Made by a program: the position numbers and the translations under genes
Part shown: positions 9,264 to 32,700 of the stretch, one piece after another
How the letters are laid out: the number at the start of each line of letters is the position of its first letter
Numbering within the stretch: the stretch's first letter is position 1
The notes under the pieces: generated by a model
The model's input: only the letters and a program-made list of their open reading frames with translations
The model's database searches: none
What the model was told of the DNA's origin: nothing
NCBI GenBank assembly: GCA_015493685.1
Contig: WGCS01000187.1
Span: 1 to 35,497, forward strand
DNA: 35,497 nt
Direction: 5' to 3'
Source: Bacteroidales bacterium
Lineage (GTDB): Bacteria > Bacteroidota > Bacteroidia > Bacteroidales > UBA1556

Positions 9264-10721
9264 ATGAATAGTAAAACCAAAATATCAGTTTATCTATTAA
9301 GTAGTATTTTTATACTTACACTACTATTGGCAGGCTCTTGCAAAAAAGCCAATCAGCTAACACAAGCTAAAGTTCAGCTTCAATTTTCAGCTGACACACT
9401 TCTTTTCGATACTCTTTTTACAACTATTGGTTCTTCAACACATACTTTATTGGTAACGAATAATGAAAGTCAGGCGGTAAATATATCGCAAATATATCTG
9501 GCAAATGGTTCTCAATCTAAATACAGAATGAATGTTGATGGCATAAGTGGATATTCAGTCTCAGATGTTAGAATAGAAGCCCACGACAGCATCTATATTT
9601 TTGTGGAAGTTACCATAGATCCTAATTCTGCTACAGGTCCTATGTTGGTAACCGACAGCATTATTTTCAATACCAATGGAAATATTCAGGATGTGGATTT
9701 AATAGCCTATGGAAGAGACGCCTATTTTATTCTTCCCAATACGCACATCAATGGATTGCCGCCATTTAATATAGTAGCCGGGGAACATACCGATACCACC
9801 TGGACCAATGATAAGCCGATTGTAATCTATGGTTACGCGGTAGTTGATTCTACGGCAACATTACACATCCAAGAAGGCACTCAAATCTATTTCCACAAGA
9901 ACTCAGGCCTTTGGGTTTATAAAGGAGGCTGCCTTAAAGTAATGGGAACTAAAGACAATCCCGTTAGCTTTGAAGGTGATCGGCCTGAGGATTATTATAA
10001 AAACTTACCCGGCCAATGGGATAGAATATGGATTAATGAAGGAAGTGTTGATAATGAAATAAATTATGCCATTATTAAAAATGGTTTTATAGGAATCCAA
10101 GCAGAGATATTACAACAGTCTATGGGTAATAAAATTAAAATTAATAATACCATTATTGAGAATATGTCGGGAGTTGGAATACTCAGTAAAGCCTATAACA
10201 TTGAGGGAAAAAATTTACTCATTGCCAATTGCAAACAATATAACCTGGCGCTAACGATGGGTGGAAGCTATGATTTCAACTATTGCAGCATTGCTAATTA
10301 CTGGAATTACAGCGTTCGAAAGACACCGGCCGTTTACCTCAACAATTATTATATGGATGCTAATAAAATTATTCATCCCTTTGATTTGACAAAAGCCAAT
10401 TTCTACAATTGCATTATCGTTGGTAGCAATGCGGAAGAACTTGTATTGGATAATAATGCCCAAGGAGGCAGTTTTAATTATCTTTTCGATCATGCTTTAC
10501 TAAAAACCCAACATATTGCAGGCAATACAAATTACTGGAAAGCAGTAATAAAAAACGAGAATCCTGATTTTATCAATGAGGGAAGCAACAACTACCACCT
10601 TGGGGCACAATCTGCAGCAATAGGAAAAGCCAAGGCCGGCATTTTACCCTTATTGGATTTGGATGGAGTGAGCCGAAATGTAGCCAATCCTGATTTGGGA
10701 GTGTATGAGTATGTCCCCTAA
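9264..10721 (+). CDS. Lipoprotein with predicted right-handed beta-helix
   Basis: The 485-residue protein starts with a lipoprotein signal peptide whose lipobox LLLAGSC places the acylated cysteine at residue 26. An N-terminal beta-sandwich-like segment (about 35-155) is followed by a Gly/Asn-rich region with repeated short strands. Examples are IYGYAVVDSTATLHIQEGT, KVMGTKDNPVSFEGD, NYAIIKNGFIGIQ and NNTIIENMSGVGI. This pattern is that of a parallel beta-helix (PbH1-type repeats), often found in right-handed pectate-lyase-like surface proteins. No catalytic residues can be named. It lies 54 bases after rlmN. Outer-membrane or periplasmic localisation is inferred. The role may be carbohydrate contact or purely structural. 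Confidence 0.85.
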   Translation: MNSKTKISVYLLSSIFILTLLLAGSCKKANQLTQAKVQLQFSADTLLFDTLFTTIGSSTHTLLVTNNESQAVNISQIYLANGSQSKYRMNVDGISGYSVSDVRIEAHDSIYIFVEVTIDPNSATGPMLVTDSIIFNTNGNIQDVDLIAYGRDAYFILPNTHINGLPPFNIVAGEHTDTTWTNDKPIVIYGYAVVDSTATLHIQEGTQIYFHKNSGLWVYKGGCLKVMGTKDNPVSFEGDRPEDYYKNLPGQWDRIWINEGSVDNEINYAIIKNGFIGIQAEILQQSMGNKIKINNTIIENMSGVGILSKAYNIEGKNLLIANCKQYNLALTMGGSYDFNYCSIANYWNYSVRKTPAVYLNNYYMDANKIIHPFDLTKANFYNCIIVGSNAEELVLDNNAQGGSFNYLFDHALLKTQHIAGNTNYWKAVIKNENPDFINEGSNNYHLGAQSAAIGKAKAGILPLLDLDGVSRNVANPDLGVYEYVP

Positions 10722-11032: not shown

Positions 11033-11800
11033 TTAATTTCGTGTAAAAACCCATTCATCACCTTTGCTCAGGTGGTCGTTATATTCATAGCCTGCTTCGT
11101 TGAAAAGTTTGATTTCATCAGGAAGCGCTATCCTATTCTTCAAGATAAAAGAAGTCATAAATCCTCTAGCCTGCTTCGCATAAATGGTAATCATTTTATA
11201 CTGTCCATTTTTAAAATCTTTAAAAACAGGCGTGATAACTCTAGCCGATAATGACTTGGGTACTATCGCCTTAAAGTATTCATTAGAAGCTAAATTAACG
11301 AGCACATTTTCGTTGTTAGTATTGAGGGACTGTATAAGTTGTTGTTGTAATTTCTCTCCCCAAAAGTGGTATAAATTAGTAAAATAATCACTCTTTAAGG
11401 CGGTACCCATTTCCAAACGATAGGGCATAATGCCATCGAGGGGACGCAGCAAACCATATAATCCGGAAATTATATTCAGGTGATTTTGCGCATATTCCAG
11501 ATCCTGCTTAGAAAAAGAAGCTATGTTAATACCCTGAAATACAGCTCCATTGAAAGCAAAGATGGCGGGGATAGTATTTTTTGTTTCGAGAGGAAATGAC
11601 ATTTGCTGAAAGCGCTCAAAATTGAGTACCGCCAACTTATCACTAATTTTCATAAGTTTTGACAAATCCTCCGGAGTAAACGTTTTCATTAACTTAAGAA
11701 GCTCTTGCGATTGCTGTTGAAAGCGAGGCATTGTCGTTTTTATGGCAGGGATTTGTACTTCGGTATTAATATTTTTAGCGGGAGATATTACAATTTGCAT
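11033..11800 (-). CDS. yaaA: Peroxide stress protein YaaA (DUF328)
   Basis: The 255-residue protein belongs to the YaaA/DUF328 family, which in E. coli limits intracellular free iron and oxidative damage during hydrogen peroxide stress and has a DNA-binding HhH-containing fold. Recognition rests on the N-terminal ISPAKNIN, the central GLYGLLRPLDGIMPYRLEMG block, and the C-terminal YAKQARGFMTSFILKNRI block, all diagnostic. Length matches the family. It stands alone between the repeat element downstream and a long divergent promoter gap upstream. A TATTTTTG -7 box lies 74 bases before the start. Cytosolic location is expected. Regulation by an OxyR-type factor cannot be seen from the sequence. 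Confidence 0.95.
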   Translation of the reverse strand: MQIVISPAKNINTEVQIPAIKTTMPRFQQQSQELLKLMKTFTPEDLSKLMKISDKLAVLNFERFQQMSFPLETKNTIPAIFAFNGAVFQGINIASFSKQDLEYAQNHLNIISGLYGLLRPLDGIMPYRLEMGTALKSDYFTNLYHFWGEKLQQQLIQSLNTNNENVLVNLASNEYFKAIVPKSLSARVITPVFKDFKNGQYKMITIYAKQARGFMTSFILKNRIALPDEIKLFNEAGYEYNDHLSKGDEWVFTRN

Positions 11801-11873
11801 CTTTTGAAGTATTAATAATTTAGTTGAATTGCCTTGAACAATAATTGAATAATAGAATTACGATAATAGATTA

Positions 11874-11881
11874 CAAAAATA
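11874..11881 (-). promoter_or_regulatory. -7 promoter element of yaaA
   Basis: The minus strand reads TATTTTTG, matching TAnnTTTG, 73 bases before the yaaA ATG. The leader would be somewhat long, and no clear -33 element accompanies it. Confidence 0.4.
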
Positions 11882-12116
11882 GTCTATTTACTTAAATCAG
11901 CGCCAGAGATTATCTATTCCAAAGTCGGACGGTGCGCCATTGTTTAAGTTGCGCGATAATAGCTATTGACAACCAGTCATTTATGCAAGCTAATATCGAT
12001 TTCCAAAGGATTACACTGCAGCTGATATTTCGACTGCACTACTTTCTATTGACCTTTCTCAATATCAATACCCATTCCAGCTTTTTCGGCTGAAAGTCTT
12101 TGAGGATTAAAGGTAT

Positions 12117-12148
12117 TTGTTTTAGAAGTGGAAAAATTTGTATATTTG
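12117..12148 (+). promoter_or_regulatory. Full Bacteroidota promoter (TTG ... TATATTTG)
   Basis: TTG at 12117-12119 and TATATTTG at 12141-12148 are separated by 21 bases, a good fit to the -33/-7 pair of the Bacteroidota primary sigma factor. The ATG of the YkvA-fusion gene lies 26 bases beyond. This is the best promoter in the window. Confidence 0.68.
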
Positions 12149-12174
12149 AAATCTAAAATAATCACTTATAAATT

Positions 12175-13290
12175 ATGTTTACACTTTCAAAAGAAAATAA
12201 AGAAAAGTTTCAACAGCAGGTCAATAATATCGACAAACATGATGAGTCGAAGGTAAGGCAAAATATTGAAAAAGAGATTTCGATATTAGAGAATAAGATT
12301 AAGAAAAGGCCTTCACATAAGTTGGAACAACTAATCGAAAATACCAAATTACTTTATGAGATACTAAGCCGGAAGGACTTTCCTATCTCAGAATCCACAC
12401 GCAAATGGATTGTTTTTGGGCTAGGCTATTTAATTTCTGACATCGACTTAATACCGGACTCAATTCCCGGCATAGGCTATCTTGATGATGCCATGATTGT
12501 ATCGTGGGTGCTCAATATGATAGACCAAGATGTAACACGTTTTGAATATTTTAAGAAAGCTAAAAAGTATGCACAAGAAGGAAATATATTAAAGGAATTG
12601 GTGCAGGGAAATGGAGAACAGCTGATAATTCTTATTCCCGGTTTTTTGGAAAACAGCAGAAATGAAAAAGAGGACACTAAATGGCTTAAATCATTGCGTA
12701 GCATTGAACACAAATACCTTTCGACGGGCTATTCTTTACTCAATTGGAATATAGCCTATCTTCCTGAATTTAGCAATACAATAACCTTGATAGACCACAA
12801 ACTTAGTTTAAAACCCCAATATGACAGTGAAGCTTTTGGTATTGAATGGCAGCAGCTAAAACTTGATATGAATAATCTTGGAATAGCTTTATTAAAAGAC
12901 ATCAAAACGATAATAAAAACAAATCCTGAGAAAGAAATTATTATTATCGCCATAAATATTGGTTCAATAGCGGTTACAAAAGCCCTTAGTGAACTCGAAG
13001 ACGAGAGTATTAGTCGATTGTTTTTGTTGGGGGCAACAAGTACTGAAGATGAAATACAGAGAAGTATTTTTGGCAAATCAAACTATATTTACAATATATA
13101 TTCTACCAATGACCATGCAATACAATTTATTTACGATAACTACGAAGAAGGTTCAACAGCTTGTGGATTGAAATTTATTCGTAGCAGCAGTAAATCTTTG
13201 GTAAAAAATATTGACGCCGGAAAACAAATTGCACGACATCATGAATATAGGTATGAGTTGAGCAGTTTAATAATACAATGCTTGGAGTAA
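12175..13290 (+). CDS. YkvA (DUF1232) domain fused to a DUF726-like alpha/beta-hydrolase domain, nucleophile lost
   Basis: The 371-residue protein has three parts. The charged N-terminus (1-70) is probably helical. A YkvA/DUF1232 core spans about 76-112 and contains SDIDLIPDSIPGIGYLDD. The C-terminal domain (about 148-365) reads like an alpha/beta hydrolase of the DUF726/TMCO4 kind: IILIPGF (151-157) as first strand and oxyanion loop, IIIIAINIGSIAVTKAL (255-271) as the nucleophile elbow, LFLLGA (282-287), YSTND with Asp313 as candidate acid, and RHHEYRY with His355/356 as candidate base. The elbow, usually GHSLG, reads AINIG, so Asn261 stands where Ser is expected. This suggests a non-catalytic or re-purposed domain. 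The gene is monocistronic with its own promoter. The function is unknown; membrane association is inferred from YkvA proteins. Confidence 0.75.
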   Translation: MFTLSKENKEKFQQQVNNIDKHDESKVRQNIEKEISILENKIKKRPSHKLEQLIENTKLLYEILSRKDFPISESTRKWIVFGLGYLISDIDLIPDSIPGIGYLDDAMIVSWVLNMIDQDVTRFEYFKKAKKYAQEGNILKELVQGNGEQLIILIPGFLENSRNEKEDTKWLKSLRSIEHKYLSTGYSLLNWNIAYLPEFSNTITLIDHKLSLKPQYDSEAFGIEWQQLKLDMNNLGIALLKDIKTIIKTNPEKEIIIIAINIGSIAVTKALSELEDESISRLFLLGATSTEDEIQRSIFGKSNYIYNIYSTNDHAIQFIYDNYEEGSTACGLKFIRSSSKSLVKNIDAGKQIARHHEYRYELSSLIIQCLE

Positions 13291-22458: not shown

Positions 22459-23835
22459 CTATTCCCCGGCTCTTATTATCGTTTTAAAACGCTCCCCTCG
22501 TTCCTCAAAGTTTTTAAACTTATCGTAACTAGCTGCAGCCGGCGAAAGCAAACAAGCTTTTGCAGGTTTAGTAAGTTGCATTGCCTTTGCAATAGCGCTA
22601 TCAAAATCATCGTAATACAATAATTGCCCGGAATAACTTTTCTCCTTAAGCATCTTATGTAAGCGAAGACCAACTTCCCCTAATAACAATATTGTCAGTG
22701 GAGAATACTGTAATAAAAAATTAACTAAAAGCGTATAGTCGATACCCCTGTCGAACCCACCTAATATCAGGGTCTGCACCGAAGGAACACTCTCCAAGGC
22801 TTTAATGGTAGCCTCAGGAATGGTGGCGATAGAATCGTTATAAAACACAGCGCCATCCACTTCCGCCACCAACTCTAAACGATGGGCCAAAGCGGAGAAA
22901 CCATAGGCTTGTTGCAAAGCTAATTCCATAGGTATTTTCAAACTATTACATACCAATAAAGCGGCCATTAGATTATTAATATTATGTTGTCCCAAAAGAG
23001 AAAATCTATCTTTATCAAAAGGGATAACCGCATTTGAAGTAATAAAAGCATTTTTCATAAAATCGAACTGTATATCTGCTTTTTGCTCCATGCTAAAGTT
23101 AAGAATACGAGAACGTATATGATGCGAGCCAATATCGGTGCTCACTTGAGCCTCTTCGGCCGGCAAAATAAGATAATCCTGTGGTAACTGGTATTTAGCA
23201 ATATTCCATTTTGCCCAGCGATAACTTTTATAGTCTTTATAATGATCAAGATGTTCCTGATATAAGTTTAGCAGTACAGCAATATGTGGGGCGTGATTAA
23301 TATACTCCAACTGATGTGATGATAGTTCAAAAACCACCATGGTATTCTCATCAATATCACTTGCTACATCCAAAGCAGGCACGCCAATATTACCAATAAG
23401 CAATACCTGCTTATAAAATGATTTAAGAATATGCTGTATTAGGCTAGCCGTAGTACTTTTTCCTTTTGTCCCTGTTATGCCAACACACTGACTACCAAAA
23501 TATTTCAAAAATAAATCCGTTTGTGAAGTAATTTGCTGCCCTGTTATTTTTTTATAGTGCATCAAACTTATTCCCGGACTTTTAATCACCAAATCATAAT
23601 GTTCGATCTCGTCAAGATAAGTATTGCCAAGATGAAATATCAAATGATTATCCTCATTGAGATCCACTTCCTGCCCAATGGCCGTATTGGCATCAGCAAT
23701 AGCCAAATTAATTGCCGGCAATAATTTACGAATAAAATAATAAGACGATCTACCTTCGCGACCAAAGCCCAAAATTACAATCCGGTGCTGCGCAAGGAAA
23801 TCGCGCATTAAATTAATGTTTATGGTCTTATTCAT
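22459..23835 (-). CDS. murD: UDP-MurNAc-L-Ala-glutamate ligase, MurD; probable MurD2 (L-Glu) type
   Basis: This Mur ligase adds glutamate to UDP-MurNAc-L-Ala in the cytosol using ATP. The 458-residue product (ATG at 23835, giving an ATGA overlap with the murL stop) has GTKGKST (122-128), ELSSHQLE (170-177), NLYQEHLDHY (190-199), a candidate carbamoyl-Lys near 209, HRLE (318-321), GGFDRG (359-364) and the C-terminal LLSPAAASYDKFKNFEERG. Canonical MurD has Lys after Asn-Asp-Ser; here 333-338 reads NDSIAT. Adjacency to a MurL-like gene suggests that it uses L-Glu rather than D-Glu, as Xanthomonas MurD2 does. It is isolated from the usual dcw cell-division cluster. Mur ligase identity is secure; the MurD2 assignment is inference. 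Confidence 0.85.
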   Translation of the reverse strand: MNKTININLMRDFLAQHRIVILGFGREGRSSYYFIRKLLPAINLAIADANTAIGQEVDLNEDNHLIFHLGNTYLDEIEHYDLVIKSPGISLMHYKKITGQQITSQTDLFLKYFGSQCVGITGTKGKSTTASLIQHILKSFYKQVLLIGNIGVPALDVASDIDENTMVVFELSSHQLEYINHAPHIAVLLNLYQEHLDHYKDYKSYRWAKWNIAKYQLPQDYLILPAEEAQVSTDIGSHHIRSRILNFSMEQKADIQFDFMKNAFITSNAVIPFDKDRFSLLGQHNINNLMAALLVCNSLKIPMELALQQAYGFSALAHRLELVAEVDGAVFYNDSIATIPEATIKALESVPSVQTLILGGFDRGIDYTLLVNFLLQYSPLTILLLGEVGLRLHKMLKEKSYSGQLLYYDDFDSAIAKAMQLTKPAKACLLSPAAASYDKFKNFEERGERFKTIIRAGE

Positions 23836-25208
23836 TCCCAAAGTTTGTTTTTCAATTTTTCAAGAAATACAGGGTCCAAAAAATTAGCCTGTTCATCAAT
23901 GGAAGAAAGTTGAATATTATTTGCCTTTTCGCAATTATCAGGAGGTAATTTTTTAAAATAATACTCCAATAAATAAGGCAACTTATCCCGATAAAATTCT
24001 TTGGACAAACAAAGGGCAATATTTACCTCATCCACGGTTCCTACACATTCAAATGGTTTTAATTCTGCTATTCCTGTCAATTCATCAAAATAGGACAGTA
24101 ATTCCTTATCATCGAGTAAATTGGCACCGAAGATATCAGCCAATACTTCCGGACTGACAAATGGTGAAAGAATGATAAAAGTAAAAAGACATTTAGAACA
24201 TTTTCCGCACCAAGAATTGGTTTTACTCCCCACATTACAACTTTTAAAATCCATAAAATAAGCTGAATTTTTAGCAAATATAGAAGCAATTTGCAATTCG
24301 CTTAATGGCCGTAATAAGGAAAAATAATTAATATCGTGACTCAAATATTTATGTGAATACTTTCTGAAATCGCTTTCAAACTCCAAGGATTTGGAATACT
24401 GGTGATTAATCTTTGTGCCTATAACAGTACTTTCGTTGGCACTGGACTCATTGGAAAGAGCAATATATTTTTTGTGACTTATTGCCGCAGCGAGAAAACT
24501 TACAAAGGCCAGCAGAGCAGAAAAAGGTGTATGCCCGTTTAAATAGCCTTTTGCATTAAGTTCCAACAGCTTAGCATCCAGAGTTCTATTAATAATTAAC
24601 ATTTTATTTTCGAAGCCGGCAATATTGGCCGTAGCAATACTTGCCCCTCTGGGATTCATTATCAATGCAATATTAGTTCCTTCCGATTTAAGCACTTCCA
24701 TACTTACCACCGAATCCTTTCCGCCTCCCACAGGAATCAATGCCAATTCTTCAACTTTGATGGTTTCTGCATGCATTGTTATACCTTGAGGGTTGGAATC
24801 AATAGCCATAAAATCGTTTTGGCTAATTTCAATTCCATTAAGAAAGAAGAACTCTCCCAATCCGTGATAATAAATCTTTTTCCAGAATTTAATTTGGTCG
24901 GCAGTGAGATGAAAAGCCTGAATATAGACCTCCTTGGGACATATCACTTTCCAATAGCTTATCAGCTCAACCATTCCAATATTGAATATCAGCTGCTCCA
25001 GCATAGATACTGAAATCGAATGGAAATCAACAAACTCCTTATTAGGAATATTTAATTTGGGATGAAATTCGACAAAATCATCAATCTCGAAATCAAATTC
25101 CATGAACAAAGCTTCCTTAGTAATTTTATAATGAAAACCACGATAGATAAACTGCTTATGCTTTAATCGAAGATTCTCAAACTTATGCTGTAGGTGTTTA
25201 ATGGCCAT
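23832..25208 (-). CDS. murL: UDP-MurNAc-L-Ala-L-Glu epimerase (MurL-like)
   Basis: In Xanthomonas, MurL inverts the terminal L-Glu of UDP-MurNAc-L-Ala-L-Glu to D-Glu using ATP. The preferred start is ATG at 25208 (MAIKHLQHK; 458 residues), not GTG at 25226, because the -7 box TATTTTTG overlaps that GTG. Visible features: a PP-loop-like VGGGKDSVVS near residues 160-169, NESSANEST at 253-261, and CGKCSKC at 334-340. This matches my memory of the family's ATP-pyrophosphatase-like core and Cys motif. It overlaps murD by four bases, so the two are translationally coupled. Another PP-loop enzyme (7-cyano-7-deazaguanine or tRNA-modifying type) is the main alternative, but length, NESSANE and the murD linkage favour MurL. 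Confidence 0.8.
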   Translation of the reverse strand: MAIKHLQHKFENLRLKHKQFIYRGFHYKITKEALFMEFDFEIDDFVEFHPKLNIPNKEFVDFHSISVSMLEQLIFNIGMVELISYWKVICPKEVYIQAFHLTADQIKFWKKIYYHGLGEFFFLNGIEISQNDFMAIDSNPQGITMHAETIKVEELALIPVGGGKDSVVSMEVLKSEGTNIALIMNPRGASIATANIAGFENKMLIINRTLDAKLLELNAKGYLNGHTPFSALLAFVSFLAAAISHKKYIALSNESSANESTVIGTKINHQYSKSLEFESDFRKYSHKYLSHDINYFSLLRPLSELQIASIFAKNSAYFMDFKSCNVGSKTNSWCGKCSKCLFTFIILSPFVSPEVLADIFGANLLDDKELLSYFDELTGIAELKPFECVGTVDEVNIALCLSKEFYRDKLPYLLEYYFKKLPPDNCEKANNIQLSSIDEQANFLDPVFLEKLKNKLWE

Positions 25209-25346: not shown

Positions 25347-25937
25347 ATGAACACAATAGATAACATACTGAATTTCAAACAAACAGGAATAAAAATAGAG
25401 AAAGCACGGCTCTTGGTATCTACGCCTCTACTCAACGATTTTTACTTTGGGCACAGCGTTGTATTATTATTAGAGCATGAACCAAAGGGTTCCATTGGCT
25501 TGGTATTAAACAAAAAAACCGACCAAGCAATATCCAATCTAATCCCCGAACTGGAAGGGATAAGTTCTCCCATCTTTATTGGAGGTCCGGTGGAACATAA
25601 TCATGTGTTTTTTATCCACAAAAATGCAGCTGTAGAAGACAGCAACAGCATTGGCACCGGTCTGTTTTGGGGTGGGAATATTCATCAGATAAGCGATTTT
25701 ATTAAGGAAGGTATTATTCCCTTATCGGACATAAAATTTTTTATTGGTTATTCGGGCTGGGGAGCAAATCAACTGGAGGAAGAATTAAAGAGTAATTCAT
25801 GGATTGTCAGCCATATAGAAGCGGCAGGGGATATTTTAACAAGCGACAGCGATTCAATGTGGAAAAACACTATTGCAAATCAAAAGTTGAACTACAAAAG
25901 CTGGTTTAACTTCCCCATAAATCCTCAAGATAACTAA
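25347..25937 (+). CDS. YqgE/AlgH family protein
   Basis: The 196-residue protein belongs to the UPF0301 (DUF179, YqgE/AlgH) family, widespread but without an agreed biochemical role; in Pseudomonas, AlgH was linked to alginate regulation. Family blocks are clear: DFYFGHSVVLLLEHEPKGS, GLVLNKKT, FIGGPVEHNHVFFIH, and FIGYSGWGANQLEEEL, followed by SWI. Cytosolic, no signal peptide. It is divergent from murL, 138 bases away. A TAACTTTTG box lies just four bases before the start codon, one base longer than the -7 consensus. Nothing is truncated. Confidence 0.93.
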   Translation: MNTIDNILNFKQTGIKIEKARLLVSTPLLNDFYFGHSVVLLLEHEPKGSIGLVLNKKTDQAISNLIPELEGISSPIFIGGPVEHNHVFFIHKNAAVEDSNSIGTGLFWGGNIHQISDFIKEGIIPLSDIKFFIGYSGWGANQLEEELKSNSWIVSHIEAAGDILTSDSDSMWKNTIANQKLNYKSWFNFPINPQDN

Positions 25938-26968: not shown

Positions 26969-28447
26969 TTACTTTAGTATTTTATTAAAATCTACTTCTA
27001 TTGATTTTTGTGATTTAAAATCGAATAAAGTACTTTTTCTAAGGGAATAAAAGGACGTCCAGAAATTCTGTAAAGCTTTTAAGTAATTAATTCTAGCCTG
27101 ATCATTGGAATTTTGAGCAATATTCAAATCTGTTACGGTTATCTTTCCTAAGAAATATCTATTTTTAGTAATAACATAACTCCGCTGTGCAACAGTATCA
27201 CTCTTGGCTGCGATATATAATTGATTTTGCTGCATATTAAATTCAGCCACTTGCAAATAGATTTGTTGTTGAAAATCGATACGACTTTGTTCCACATTAC
27301 TTTTTACAATTGATAAGTTACTTTCTGCAATTTTCACCTGTCCTTTTCTCAATCCCCAATCAAATATTGGCACTTGCAATCCTAATCGTACATTCTGCTG
27401 CTGGTATGGATTTTTATACACCTCGTTCAGCATCTTTGAATTCTGTGTAAGCCCAAATACGGCATATAAATTAGCATTAAAACCATTGGCTTTTTTTGCT
27501 CTGTCTAATTCCGAATTCGCCTGGAGCATCTGCCTGTCCATGGCTAAAATATGAGAGTTATTTTTCAGCGCATGGTCCAATGCTTTAGCTTTATCAACAA
27601 CCATAAAATGCACCGGCTTGGGATCTACCAATACAATATTATCTTCAGGGCTAAGGCGTAAGAATGACTTAAAACGATACATCGCATTCTCGTAATTCAA
27701 CTTCGCCAATTGCAAGGAAGATTTTGACTGCAAAGTTTTCAATTCCAACTGCAGCAGATCATTTTCCTCTATTTTCCCCAAACTATACCTCCCCTTGGCC
27801 ATTTGATACAGTGTATCATAGTTTTGCACATTAATCTCATTAATCTGAATTTCGAGTTGAGCTTTAAGTAAGTTAAAATAATAATTTACTGCCGTAATGC
27901 TCACCTGTTCCACTGCTTCCAGATATTTAATCTTAGCCTCTTGATATTTTAAAGGTTCTATTTTTTTACTCCACTTGTATGGATTATAATTAAACAAAGG
28001 CTGCATAATACCAAGATTCACAGGAGTAGAAAGGAAATTGTGTGTCTTGGAGCTATCGCTATAGTTATCAATACGTTGAAGACCTGTTGATAAAAACACA
28101 TTACCTCCGGTTAAACCAAGTGTTTTTTTAATCTTTAAACTTCCTGAATAGGAGACATAGCTTTGACCTATATAGGTTTCGGTACCATCGGAACCGGTAT
28201 ATTTGGTAAAAGCATGATTTAAGTTAGGCAGCTCTCCTGAGAAATCAACTTGGGGCAATAAACCTCTTTTAAAATTACGATATGACCAATAATTACTTAT
28301 TAACTCGAATTTGGCAATTTGAGCATTAGGCGATTTTCTTTTGGCAATTTCAATAACATCTTTTAAAGTAAGCACCTTTTGGGCTTGGACAACATCAAGA
28401 GATAAAAGAATTAGTATCAATAAAACAGAACTTTTTTTAATAATCAT
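26969..28447 (-). CDS. TolC-family outer-membrane efflux protein
   Basis: The 492-residue protein (ATG at 28447; a TTG two codons upstream is less likely) begins with a signal peptide ending at VQAQ. It has the two internal OEP repeats of TolC-type channels: long helical stretches rich in Gln, Asn and Leu (QVSITAVNYYFNLLKAQLEIQ; TDLNIAQNSNDQARINYLKALQNFW) and strand segments between. It should form a trimeric outer-membrane channel with a periplasmic helical barrel. It is the last gene of a three-gene set with the permease (12-base gap) and the adaptor. Cargo is unknown; macrolides, lipids or peptides are typical for MacAB-like systems. Confidence 0.9.
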   Translation of the reverse strand: MIIKKSSVLLILILLSLDVVQAQKVLTLKDVIEIAKRKSPNAQIAKFELISNYWSYRNFKRGLLPQVDFSGELPNLNHAFTKYTGSDGTETYIGQSYVSYSGSLKIKKTLGLTGGNVFLSTGLQRIDNYSDSSKTHNFLSTPVNLGIMQPLFNYNPYKWSKKIEPLKYQEAKIKYLEAVEQVSITAVNYYFNLLKAQLEIQINEINVQNYDTLYQMAKGRYSLGKIEENDLLQLELKTLQSKSSLQLAKLNYENAMYRFKSFLRLSPEDNIVLVDPKPVHFMVVDKAKALDHALKNNSHILAMDRQMLQANSELDRAKKANGFNANLYAVFGLTQNSKMLNEVYKNPYQQQNVRLGLQVPIFDWGLRKGQVKIAESNLSIVKSNVEQSRIDFQQQIYLQVAEFNMQQNQLYIAAKSDTVAQRSYVITKNRYFLGKITVTDLNIAQNSNDQARINYLKALQNFWTSFYSLRKSTLFDFKSQKSIEVDFNKILK

Positions 28448-28459
28448 ATTCAATAAATT

Positions 28460-29806
28460 TTATTCGTAATGTAAAGAATCGACAATATCATTATCAGCTG
28501 CTTTTTTGGCAGGCATATAGCCAAATATTATCCCCACTGCAGCTGAAACTATAAAGGAGACTAATACTGAAAACCAGGAAACAATAGTTGGAATATCTGT
28601 TACTTTAGAAATAATACTAGCCATAACAACGCCTAAGATAACGCCAATAAATCCGCCAAAAAGAGAGATAATGGCAGCTTCGGAAAGAAACTGAAAGACT
28701 ACATCCGAGGCTCTTGCTCCTATGGACCGTCGAATACCAATTTCTTTGGTGCGTTCCATCACCGATGCCAGCATAATATTCATAATGCCAATGCCACCAA
28801 CGATAAGCGATATACTGGCAATAGCTCCCAATACGATATTAAAGATATCCCTTGTTTTTTGTTCCTGTTTTAACAACAACTCAGGAATACTTATGGTAAA
28901 ATCATCGGCCTGAGCATGTTTCCGCTTAAGCATACGACTGATCAGGTCTGCTGAGGCTCTTAAGAATTTTGATTCATCAACTTGAACCACAATAACATCC
29001 ACTTGGTTTCTATTGGGATTAACATCAGCACCATTACGTTTCGATATTTTTTGTTTGGTAACAATAGATTTATCATTATTTCTTTTGAGGTACGAAGTAA
29101 TGGGAATATATACTGTATTATCAAATTCATCAATTCCCGCACTGGCGCCCACGCCGGAAATTTGTCCTCTAATGGCAAGTACACCAATTATTTTATACCA
29201 ATTATTTCCACATTTTATTTGTTTACCTATGGCATTCACTGTGGGGAACAATCTACTTTTAACACCATGTCCGATAACACATACTTGCGATGATTTCATA
29301 TAATTGAGCCTATTCGGAAAATGGCCTTCCTTGGTTTTCAATTGAAAGATCTTAAAAAAGTCTGCGTTCACTCCTGACAATTCCCCCTTAAAATGAGCGC
29401 CACTATAAATAATATCTACTTCATCTTTTGTCTCTACGCTTACTTCTTTCACCGTAGGCAAAATATACTTTATCGACTTGGCTTCAGCAATACTTAAGCC
29501 TGCCGATAAATTCTTTTTTGATTCTTTTTCTTTTTCCTGTTCTGATTGACCTGCTTGAGCTGACTTGGTATTTTTATCCACTTTTTTTGCCTTAATAATA
29601 ATATTATTAACGCCTATCATTTTCATCTGTTCCAGCACTTCTTTCTTCGCCCCATTACCAATGGCAAGCATTGAAATAACAGCACTAACGCCAAATATTA
29701 TTCCTAATGCCGTTAAGAAAGTTCGAATTTTATTAATAAAAACTGCTTCGAATGCAATTTTCAAATTCATTAAATAATGTTCAAATTGTTTGGAGCTTAG
29801 TTTCAT
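28460..29806 (-). CDS. MacB-like ABC transporter permease (FtsX fold), no ATPase domain
   Basis: The 448-residue protein has a TM segment at the N-terminus (IRTFLTALGIIFGVSAVISMLAIG), a large periplasmic MacB_PCD domain (about 60-300), and three C-terminal TMs of the FtsX domain, with the cytosolic loop motif VMERTKEIGIRRSIGARASDV. The periplasmic domain carries an unusual Lys/Glu/Gln-rich insert (about 75-97). A second ATG at 29770 (MNLKIAF) could be the real start. It lacks the fused ATPase that E. coli MacB has, and no ATP-binding gene lies in the window. It sits between adaptor and TolC genes, with a 143-base gap to the adaptor. Confidence 0.9.
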   Translation of the reverse strand: MKLSSKQFEHYLMNLKIAFEAVFINKIRTFLTALGIIFGVSAVISMLAIGNGAKKEVLEQMKMIGVNNIIIKAKKVDKNTKSAQAGQSEQEKEKESKKNLSAGLSIAEAKSIKYILPTVKEVSVETKDEVDIIYSGAHFKGELSGVNADFFKIFQLKTKEGHFPNRLNYMKSSQVCVIGHGVKSRLFPTVNAIGKQIKCGNNWYKIIGVLAIRGQISGVGASAGIDEFDNTVYIPITSYLKRNNDKSIVTKQKISKRNGADVNPNRNQVDVIVVQVDESKFLRASADLISRMLKRKHAQADDFTISIPELLLKQEQKTRDIFNIVLGAIASISLIVGGIGIMNIMLASVMERTKEIGIRRSIGARASDVVFQFLSEAAIISLFGGFIGVILGVVMASIISKVTDIPTIVSWFSVLVSFIVSAAVGIIFGYMPAKKAADNDIVDSLHYE

Positions 29807-29894
29807 CTAATTAAAAGGTATTACAATAATATGGTAAGAATTAAGTGTCATTATTTATAGAATTATTAACCGAAAAAAGAATTCATACATTAAG

Positions 29895-29921
29895 AATGGT
29901 ATCTGTTTCTATCGTACCATT
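29895..29921 (-). promoter_or_regulatory. Intercistronic hairpin between adaptor and permease genes
   Basis: AATGGTA (29895-29901) and TACCATT (29915-29921) form a seven-base inverted repeat with a 13-base spacer in the 143-base gap between the two cistrons. It could be an operator or an RNA processing hairpin. No T-run follows on the minus strand, so it is not a standard terminator. Confidence 0.35.
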
Positions 29922-29949
29922 TTCACCGGATAAATTATTGGCAGCTCAG

Positions 29950-31179
29950 CTACAAGCGTTTCAGCTTCCACGATTCAGCTCCTGCAGGAGGAACAAGATA
30001 CAATTCCTCTCCTTTTGTCAGTCCCTTCTTTATCACTATTTCATCTTGATTACTTTTTCCGGCTTTTACTTCAATACGTTCGCCATTACCATAAACATAA
30101 GATACACTATCTTTTGTATTTAAGGCTTCAAGCGGAATGAAATTGACAGAGTCTAAGACTTCAACTTGAATATTGTTTTTTGTGGACATTGCTGGACGCA
30201 GATCAGAATCCTGCCCCATAACATTAATAGTAACTTCAAAAACGTGTGCACTGGTATTCTGTATTTCTTCACCAATATTAGCCACAGAACTCACTTCTCC
30301 TTTTAATACTTTTTGAGGAAAAGCATCAACAGAAATCTGTACTTTCTGCCCTTGCTTCACTTTACTAATATCAATTTCATTAACATAAGTTTTTACTACC
30401 ATCTGTGATAAATCAGGTAACTTTGCCACCACCGGATTCCAAATACTGATTTTAGACCCTGTTTTTATCTTTTGACCTCTCCATGTTTTGGTATAAATAA
30501 GCATTCCTGCTTGGGGCGCCTTTATTTTAAAACCCTTTAACACATCCAAAAAGCGATTTTTCTTCGTCAGCTCTTTTTGGTAATCAATCATTGAGGTACG
30601 GACAATATTTTCTTCCTTGCGCTTTTTAAGTTTGTAATTATTCAATGTTTGCCGATATTGGCGTTTTGTCTTTTGTATTGATATTCTGAGTTTCTCTTTG
30701 GTAACCGGCGATTCATATTTAGAATTTTTCAATTCCATTTGTAACTCCTTTAATGAATAATTAATATTAACAAGATTATCTCTGGCAGCTCTTAATGTTA
30801 ATGCTGAATCTATTTTTGATTGATTGATTTTGGCTTCAAATTTTTCCAGATTAGCATCCAGCACCTTTATTTTATTTAGCACAGGTGTTGGATCAATAGT
30901 GGCAATATAATCTCCAGAATCAACAATTGTACCTTCGGGAATAATATTATTTAATTTCAAATCTTCATAAATCCCCACTCCTCGCAAACCTGCAGGCCCC
31001 TGAATATTGGTCGAGTTTTTCGAGTCTAGCTCTCCACTGGTAACAACATTAATTACAAATTCACCGTTTTTTACTTTAGTTTTAATTCCTTCATCCGACT
31101 TACTACCACTATAATACCATATTCCAATGACAAGTACAACAGCAAGAGAAATCAAAGTAATTTTAACTTTATTCTTCAT
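29950..31179 (-). CDS. Periplasmic adaptor (HlyD/MacA-like membrane fusion protein)
   Basis: The 409-residue protein starts with one membrane anchor (about 7-24, ITLISLAVVLVIGIWYY). A beta-barrel/lipoyl half-motif follows, then a long antiparallel coiled coil (about 110-210), the second lipoyl half (FKIKAPQAGMLIYTKTW), and beta-barrel and membrane-proximal domains with SVDAFPQKVLKGEVSSVANI. It links an inner-membrane permease to TolC. Closest in kind to MacA-type adaptors of ABC exporters, but the RND class has similar folds. It is the first gene of the adaptor-permease-TolC set. The 357 bases upstream show no strong promoter or sigma-54 box. Confidence 0.9.
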   Translation of the reverse strand: MKNKVKITLISLAVVLVIGIWYYSGSKSDEGIKTKVKNGEFVINVVTSGELDSKNSTNIQGPAGLRGVGIYEDLKLNNIIPEGTIVDSGDYIATIDPTPVLNKIKVLDANLEKFEAKINQSKIDSALTLRAARDNLVNINYSLKELQMELKNSKYESPVTKEKLRISIQKTKRQYRQTLNNYKLKKRKEENIVRTSMIDYQKELTKKNRFLDVLKGFKIKAPQAGMLIYTKTWRGQKIKTGSKISIWNPVVAKLPDLSQMVVKTYVNEIDISKVKQGQKVQISVDAFPQKVLKGEVSSVANIGEEIQNTSAHVFEVTINVMGQDSDLRPAMSTKNNIQVEVLDSVNFIPLEALNTKDSVSYVYGNGERIEVKAGKSNQDEIVIKKGLTKGEELYLVPPAGAESWKLKRL

Positions 31180-31536
31180 TTTTTTAGATTAGATTTATTA
31201 AACAAATGCTTGCTTTCATTTCTGCATATCCAATTAATTTATTTTTATATTATCTTTCCAAAATAAAGGCCGGAAAAAATAGCATGAGAATAATTGAAAT
31301 TACATTATCAAACGCTCAAAAGTAACAATTATTATACGCAAAGAGCTCTGAGCATTTATTAAAATATCACAAAAAAACTTAATATCTATCTTCAATCAGC
31401 ATCTTAGGCAATACTATCATCAACACCGAACTAGGACTTAATGCTTTGTATATTACTCAATTACATCACACTATCATTGTATCACAGCACTTAGTATTCG
31501 TTGGAAAAAGCTAATACCTATTCAAAAAGACTTCTA
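31180..31536. other. Intergenic region upstream of the export operon
   Basis: This 357-base AT-rich gap lies between the regulator and the adaptor gene. I looked on the minus strand for a sigma-54 GG-N10-GC box and did not find one that I trust, nor a clear TAnnTTTG; a TTTATTTTGG near 31258-31267 is the closest. No frame, tRNA or strong hairpin is visible. Confidence 0.4.
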
Positions 31537-32700
31537 CTATTTCACCAATGGCTTCACATACATCTCAATATCAGCAGGAGTAATATCTTGTGAGCAAAGT
31601 ATCAACAAACGCTCTATTACATTTCTAAGCTCTCTAATATTCCCTGTCCAAGGCAGTTCTTTAAGCATTTGCATTGCCTTGGCATCAAATCGTAAAGGAG
31701 CTCTTCCGTTGAGTGCTGCGATATCATTCATAAAATAATTGGCAAGAATAGGTATATCGTCCTTTCGTTTTCGTAATGGCGGTACTTCAATGGGGATAAC
31801 ACTTAAACGGTGATACAAATCTTCCCTAAAATTTCCTTTCTTTATTTCCTTGTCCAACTCTTTATTGGTGGCGGCAATTATTCTCACATCCACTTTAATC
31901 TCTTTCTCACCACCCACTCTGGTAATTTTATTTTCCTGCAAAGCTCTGAGCACCTTAGCCTGTGCCGAAAGACTCATATCACCAACTTCATCGAGGAATA
32001 ACGTTCCTCCATTGGCCAGCTCAAAGTTACCTTTCCGCTGTTTATGTGCTGAGGTAAAGCTTCCTTTCTCATGACCAAACAACTCGCTCTCGATAAGTTC
32101 AGATGGAATTGCGGCACAATTTACTTCGATAAAAGGAGCATGAGAACGTTGACTTTTTTCGTGGAGCCAATGGGCAACAAGTTCTTTACCGGTACCATTC
32201 TCCCCATAAATTAGCACCCTTGCTGTACTGGGAGCTACTTTTTCTATCATCTCTTTTATATGCACTATCTCAGGACTCTCACCTATCATTTCATATTTCC
32301 TGCTTACTTTCTTCTTCAGTACCTTAGTTTCTTTTATCAGTTTACTCTTATCCATAGCATTACGGATGGTAACCAACAAGCGATTCAAATCGGGAGGCTT
32401 TGAAATATAATCGTAAGCTCCTTTTTTAATTGCCTCAACAGCTGTATCAATAGTGCCATGGCCCGAAATCATTACAAAGGGCACATCGGTAAATAATCGT
32501 GATTCTTCCAAAACTTCTATCCCATCTTTTTCGGGCATTTTAATATCACAAAGCACCAAATCGTACTCACTTTCCTTTAACTTTTCCAATGCAACAACCC
32601 CATTCTCTGCCTCCTCAACTTTATACTTCTCATATCCCAATATCTCCTTCAGCGTTCTGCGTATAGGTGCCTCATCATCAATTATCAATATTTTTGCCAT
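31537..32700 (-). CDS. NtrC-like response regulator (receiver + AAA+), lacking the DNA-binding domain
   Basis: The 387-residue protein has a receiver domain (1-120) with phospho-acceptor Asp52 in LVLCDIKMP and the conserved Lys101 in SKPPD. The sigma-54 AAA+ domain (about 137-365) has Walker A GENGTGKE (166-173), Walker B GGTLFLDE (231-238), FREDLYHRLS, and a GAFTGA loop that reads GSFTSA (213-218). It stops shortly after WTGNIRELRNVIERLL, about 60 residues earlier than NtrC. The Fis-type helix-turn-helix is absent, and the sequence ends in a normal stop. I recall this HTH-less form as common in Bacteroidota; it may act from solution like Helicobacter FlgR. No histidine kinase is adjacent. 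Confidence 0.93.
   Translation of the reverse strand: MAKILIIDDEAPIRRTLKEILGYEKYKVEEAENGVVALEKLKESEYDLVLCDIKMPEKDGIEVLEESRLFTDVPFVMISGHGTIDTAVEAIKKGAYDYISKPPDLNRLLVTIRNAMDKSKLIKETKVLKKKVSRKYEMIGESPEIVHIKEMIEKVAPSTARVLIYGENGTGKELVAHWLHEKSQRSHAPFIEVNCAAIPSELIESELFGHEKGSFTSAHKQRKGNFELANGGTLFLDEVGDMSLSAQAKVLRALQENKITRVGGEKEIKVDVRIIAATNKELDKEIKKGNFREDLYHRLSVIPIEVPPLRKRKDDIPILANYFMNDIAALNGRAPLRFDAKAMQMLKELPWTGNIRELRNVIERLLILCSQDITPADIEMYVKPLVK

Follow-up and report, generated by a model that had tools for sequence, protein, structure and literature searches.

A YkvA domain fused to an alpha/beta-hydrolase-fold domain with Asn or Asp at the nucleophile position: a probably repurposed hydrolase in a Bacteroidales genus

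The window, i.e. the whole stretch of DNA analysed here, comprises 35,497 nucleotides of a contig from a Bacteroidales bacterium. An open reading frame of 371 codons at positions 12175–13290 (+ strand) encodes a two-domain protein, in which a YkvA domain precedes an alpha/beta hydrolase that lacks the serine, and the gene is present as a single copy in its genome. The DUF1232/YkvA match (Pfam PF06803) spans residues 77–111 (12403–12507, +) with an E value of 2.3e-12 and 46.9 bits (cut-off 23). The DUF726 match (Pfam PF05277) spans residues 249–366 with an E value of 4.2e-8 and 33.0 bits (cut-off 22.6) and covers positions 215–337 of the 343 in the profile, so that only its C-terminal part is matched and the first 214 positions are not. 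The fusion of the two domains, proposed earlier in a sequence-only reading of this DNA, is thus supported by two matches above the Pfam cut-offs, and both domains are also matched in all nine members found in the genus (E up to 0.1).

The divergent neighbor of the two-domain gene is yaaA (11033–11800, − strand), identified by its Pfam name as encoding a peroxide stress protein, and the two genes are separated by a gap of 374 bases (11801–12174). The upstream gene is visible in seven of the nine loci that carry the two-domain gene, and in six of these it is a divergent yaaA homologue at a distance of 83–468 bases (the window, L023, L025, L026, L027 and L029; the window copy is the one named by Pfam). 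In the seventh, L024, it is what we take to be a threonyl-tRNA synthetase-like gene. The retention of the yaaA pairing in six of seven visible loci makes a shared promoter region possible, and as YaaA is a peroxide-stress protein, such a promoter could possibly be stress-responsive. In L024, L028 and L030 the homologue is followed by related genes downstream. In the latter two loci, a large gene (1236–1238 aa; L028 1480–5187, L030 1426–5139) lies directly downstream of it, and its product in L028 matches TraB/PrgY/GumN in two stretches. Elsewhere in the window, a 485-aa protein without a Pfam match is encoded at 9264–10718 (+), and its homologue also lies beyond yaaA in L026, L027 (partial) and L029. 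Another protein without a Pfam match (458 aa; 23835–25208, −) adjoins a MurD-like Mur ligase (22462–23835, −), with a divergent AlgH-like gene (25347–25934) beside it. The same trio is found in L023 (190–3644), where the 458-aa homologue is 65% identical. Genes for OEP outer-membrane efflux, MacB/FtsX and HlyD proteins occupy 26969–32700 (−) and adjoin a sigma-54-dependent response regulator.

Full-length homologues are encoded in nine of the 11 genomes of the genus, including all six with a completeness of 90% or more and a contamination of 5% or less; the two genomes without a homologue are 70% and 75% complete. Among 99 relatives searched, which included the genome of the window and 10 others of the genus, 17 genomes gave matches. 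Nine of these were the full-length homologues and the other eight matched the DUF1232 part only (for one of them, L012, Pfam reports DUF1232 alone). A profile of the C-terminal domain matched 13 of 393 genomes of the order, six from the genus (E up to 2e-91) and seven others (E from 4e-4 to 9e-3), and the seven weak matches were taken for chance. DUF1232 occurs in 135 of 247 Bacteroidota genomes, and most of the listed matches are in open frames of fewer than 260 codons. These stand-alone YkvA/DUF1232 proteins share the DUF1232 motif with all nine members, but in 10 longer DUF1232 frames the C-domain profile found no match (0/10), although the whole-length profile matched every one. DUF726 is rare in the phylum, with five of 395 genomes matched at E up to 0.001 and two over the cut-off, that of the window included. 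Among the Bacteroidota genomes, to which the profile sampling was confined, the YkvA-hydrolase fusion was found only in the genus; it may also occur in other phyla. Among the papers searched, none named both DUF1232 and DUF726. Plasmids, phages, viral contigs and PADLOC gave no match, and a mobile or defence element was rejected on this basis.

The AlphaFold2 model of the full-length protein, based on the nine-sequence alignment, has a pLDDT of 87.2 and a pTM of 0.87. It is helical up to residue 135, with N-terminal helices 6–17, 21–44 and 48–65 in residues 1–76 (12175–12402, +) followed by the DUF1232/YkvA core. The YkvA loop 94–100 is the only stretch of three or more residues with a pLDDT below 50. 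From residue 139 strands and helices alternate, and the domain extends to residue 371 (12589–13287, +). Hydropathy, assessed by a 19-residue scan only, has its maximum of 1.65 in a segment starting at residue 254–255, within a core strand of this domain, which leaves the membrane association raised in the earlier reading a possibility only. Superposition of the full model with VIA-align gave the carboxylesterase 4fhz as the best match (Z 13.3, rmsd 3.7, 199 residues). When the C-terminal domain was modelled alone (pLDDT 86.7), the best match was a lipase (Z 12.4, rmsd 3.5, 163 residues). Alpha/beta hydrolases predominate among the entries listed by Foldseek and VIA-align, and a sequence search of solved structures gave only chance matches, to IQGAP1. 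The earlier reading had called this region hydrolase-like and had named a predicted structure without a hydrolase fold as evidence against itself; the model and the VIA-align superpositions instead allow us to assign residues ∼139–371 with confidence to a predicted alpha/beta-hydrolase fold.

Foldseek ranked two Nir2 structures first for the C-terminal domain, Nir2 DDHD (9jyx, E 1.1e-4) and Nir2 NirD (9c37, E 1.6e-4), which match in fold only (12% and 10% identity). The DDHD domain takes its name from four residues, D, D, H and D. The DDHD/NirD domain belongs to a lipid-transfer protein, and in fly RDGB its conserved residues matter for localisation, according to PMC7990853. Nir2 chains are absent from the 50 entries listed by VIA-align for the C-terminal domain, so the Foldseek match is no specific evidence for lipid binding.

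Residues 255–271 (IIIIAINIGSIAVTKAL) had been aligned in the earlier reading with the nucleophile elbow (GHSLG) of DUF726-type alpha/beta hydrolases, and this placement is borne out by the model, in which residues 254–273 (12934–12993, +) form a strand, the elbow and a helix. Residue 261 lies in the elbow turn between strand 254–260 and helix 263–273 and is an asparagine in place of the catalytic serine (codon AAT, 12955–12957, +). Asp313 (13111–13113, +), the acid, follows the penultimate strand (302–309), and His355 (13237–13239, +), the base, follows the last one (342–347). Residues 261, 313 and 355 thus occupy the positions that PMC11878206 and PMC7034887 describe for the nucleophile, the acid and the base of the alpha/beta-hydrolase fold.

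The nine members found in the genus, the window protein and relatives 35–60% identical to it, have N N N N D N N D N at position 261, i.e. Asn in seven and Asp in two. Ser is absent from all nine, as are Gly, Ala and Thr, whereas Asp313 and His355 are invariant. The loss of serine with retention of the acid and base, first noticed in a single sequence, is therefore common to the genus, and the Ser-bearing homologues that would have made the window gene one decayed copy did not appear among the nine. The earlier reading asked whether Asn261 itself is conserved; the position is in fact Asn or Asp, not Asn alone. Of the two adjacent histidines put forward as the base, His355 stands, while His356 was rejected, as position 356 is His in only two of the nine. 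Within the C-terminal domain of the window protein, two of 10 Asp residues (D207 and D313) and one of five His residues (H355) are invariant across the genus; D207 is also one of the invariant genus-specific polar residues, the others being N307, S310 and N345. The residue before the nucleophile position is Ile, Leu, Phe or Met and the one after it Ile, Thr, Ala or Val. Residue 347 (13213–13215), which closes the last strand and adjoins the invariant Asn345, is also confined to Asp and Asn (D D N D D D N N N). Two serines were considered as possible displaced nucleophiles and set aside: at position 264 the genus varies between Ser, Thr and Ala, while Ser310, although invariant in the genus, precedes the acid by three residues and is replaced by Asn or Thr in four of five Ser-bearing relatives.

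A tree of the homologues, computed with column 261 omitted and with only three of its six inner branches well supported, requires at least two changes between Asn and Asp at this position. One of them separates L007 (Asn) from L009 (Asp), the two closest members, which are 81% identical over the protein and whose genes are the same two as in loci L028 and L030. Identity between them is 126/140 residues in the N-terminal part and 173/229 in the C-terminal part, with dN of 0.055 for residues 1–140 and 0.138 for the remainder. Synonymous change is saturated in the C-terminal part, and for the N-terminal part one method gave a dS of 1.33. Both parts thus look constrained, the C-terminal one less so.

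Relatives that retain the serine came from profiles run against 345 genomes from the phylum and 195 from the class of G325, in both cases outside the order. These five DUF900/DUF726-like bacterial hydrolases (L050–L054; open frames of 269–310 aa) have Ser at the nucleophile position in an elbow of the form GHS[LM]A or THSMG, always with His before Ser, and their Asp and His align with Asp313 and His355 in all five. Their best Pfam match is DUF900, and Pfam found no DUF1232 match in any of them. Comparison of the nine-sequence C-domain alignment with one of these relatives by hhalign gave a probability of 95%. In the joint alignment of 14 sequences, which combines one genus with five distant sequences at 17–18% identity and is unreliable at residues 183–219, six of 225 columns of the window C-domain are identical: G156, K229, D313, G331, H355 and Y358. 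Gly156 (12640–12642, +) aligns with the 'HG' of the oxyanion loop in the Ser-bearing relatives, and the residue before it in the genus is Pro in eight members and Ser in one. Three proteins from the phylum-wide DUF726 search were left out of this alignment; by eye, L020 and L021 have a Ser elbow (GHSMG), and L022 has a stop in frame. As Ser is absent from all nine genus members and present in all five distant relatives, it was replaced before the divergence of the species sampled, and the His-Asp pair stayed constrained.

Set against known families, the window protein shares with DUF726 (PF05277; human TMCO4) a sequence match over the cut-off and the alpha/beta-hydrolase fold, but it is bacterial, is fused to YkvA and lacks the Ser nucleophile. 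PF05277 is a eukaryotic protein family whose members mostly have a single domain, according to PMC11878206. Of the features of serine hydrolases of this fold, the window protein has the predicted fold, the acid and the His, but at the elbow, where Ser (or Cys) belongs, the genus has Asn (7/9) or Asp (2/9). Because Ser is missing in 9/9, an ordinary serine esterase is excluded, and we infer that the window protein no longer works as one. Random decay is unlikely, as the other two catalytic residues are kept and only Asn and Asp occur at position 261 in the sample; a decayed single copy or a sequencing error at codon 261 was rejected, since nine genomes agree. With the serine esterase and random decay set aside, a repurposed site remains: in this small group of uncultured bacteria, the two-part protein is most likely not a broken gene but a hydrolase that has been put to another use, as a sensor, a scaffold or a different enzyme.

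Four readings of this site were ranked, in an order that rests on judgement. The first, to which we give about an even chance, is a pseudo-hydrolase module that binds a ligand, is attached to YkvA and serves as a sensor or scaffold. The old active-site pocket would still bind a small ligand, probably acyl- or lipid-like, or a partner, through a network of Asp313, His355 and Asn261, with the YkvA domain either receiving the effect of binding or localising it. Replacement of the His before Ser by Ile, Leu, Phe or Met, together with the invariant genus-specific polar residues, is more readily explained by a rebuilt pocket than by drift. However, invariance of the Asp-His pair is what a working enzyme would show, and a protein that only binds could do without it; the nine sequences also all belong to a single genus, so that their conservation is partly due to common descent.

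The invariant pair beside a non-serine nucleophile position would find a direct use in the second, rather unlikely reading, in which His355 and Asp313 supply general-base catalysis, no covalent nucleophile takes part and the substrate is held in position by Asn/Asp261. No DUF726 member is known to us to operate as such a dyad, and the neighboring genes (yaaA and a CpsB-like gene) point to no substrate or pathway. Precedents exist in the same fold: according to PMC10548524, in HOD-type cofactor-free dioxygenases the His-Asp subset suffices and the Ser can be lost, being Ala in some organisms, and MKS1 lacks the canonical triad and keeps the His. The likeness drawn between the window protein and the HOD-type enzymes concerns fold and residues.

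Ranked third, and improbable, is an exchange of Ser for an Asp nucleophile with epoxide-hydrolase or dehalogenase chemistry, in which Asn261 would be deamidated in the folded site. It draws on the restriction of column 261 to Asn and Asp and on the N/D changes in the tree, one of them between 81%-identical members, and two members do encode the Asp that haloalkane dehalogenases and epoxide hydrolases have at the elbow. A haloalkane dehalogenase whose nucleophile had been engineered from Asp to Asn was reportedly activated by hydrolytic deamidation (Pries et al. 1995, as cited in PMC3005927). The window protein itself, however, encodes Asn, and in haloalkane dehalogenases Trp follows the nucleophile, where the genus has Ile, Thr, Ala or Val; moreover, Asn and Asp may suit the strained elbow backbone for purely structural reasons. 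Slimmer still is the chance of the fuller scenario, in which the lineage switched its nucleophile from Ser to Asp/Asn with His and Asp kept, the Asn forms deamidate themselves to Asp and YkvA is an attached module. The last reading, an inactivated hydrolase domain left as a structural extension of YkvA and conserved through fold stability and shared descent, would accord with the faster evolution of the C-terminal domain in the two closest members and with tolerance of Asn and Asp by the elbow backbone, but it too is improbable given the selective retention of Asp313 and His355, the lack of stops within the match in nine genomes and the absence of Gly, Ala or Thr at 261.

The genus offers a clean example from nature of a very common fold that has exchanged one catalytic residue and kept the other two. 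The pattern holds across relatives that share only 35–60% identity with the window protein, and a direct test of the origin of a pseudo-enzyme, or of a nucleophile switch, is thereby possible. We know of no function for the widespread YkvA/DUF1232 domain, and it may gain a handle here, where it shares one polypeptide chain with a recognisable ligand-binding fold.
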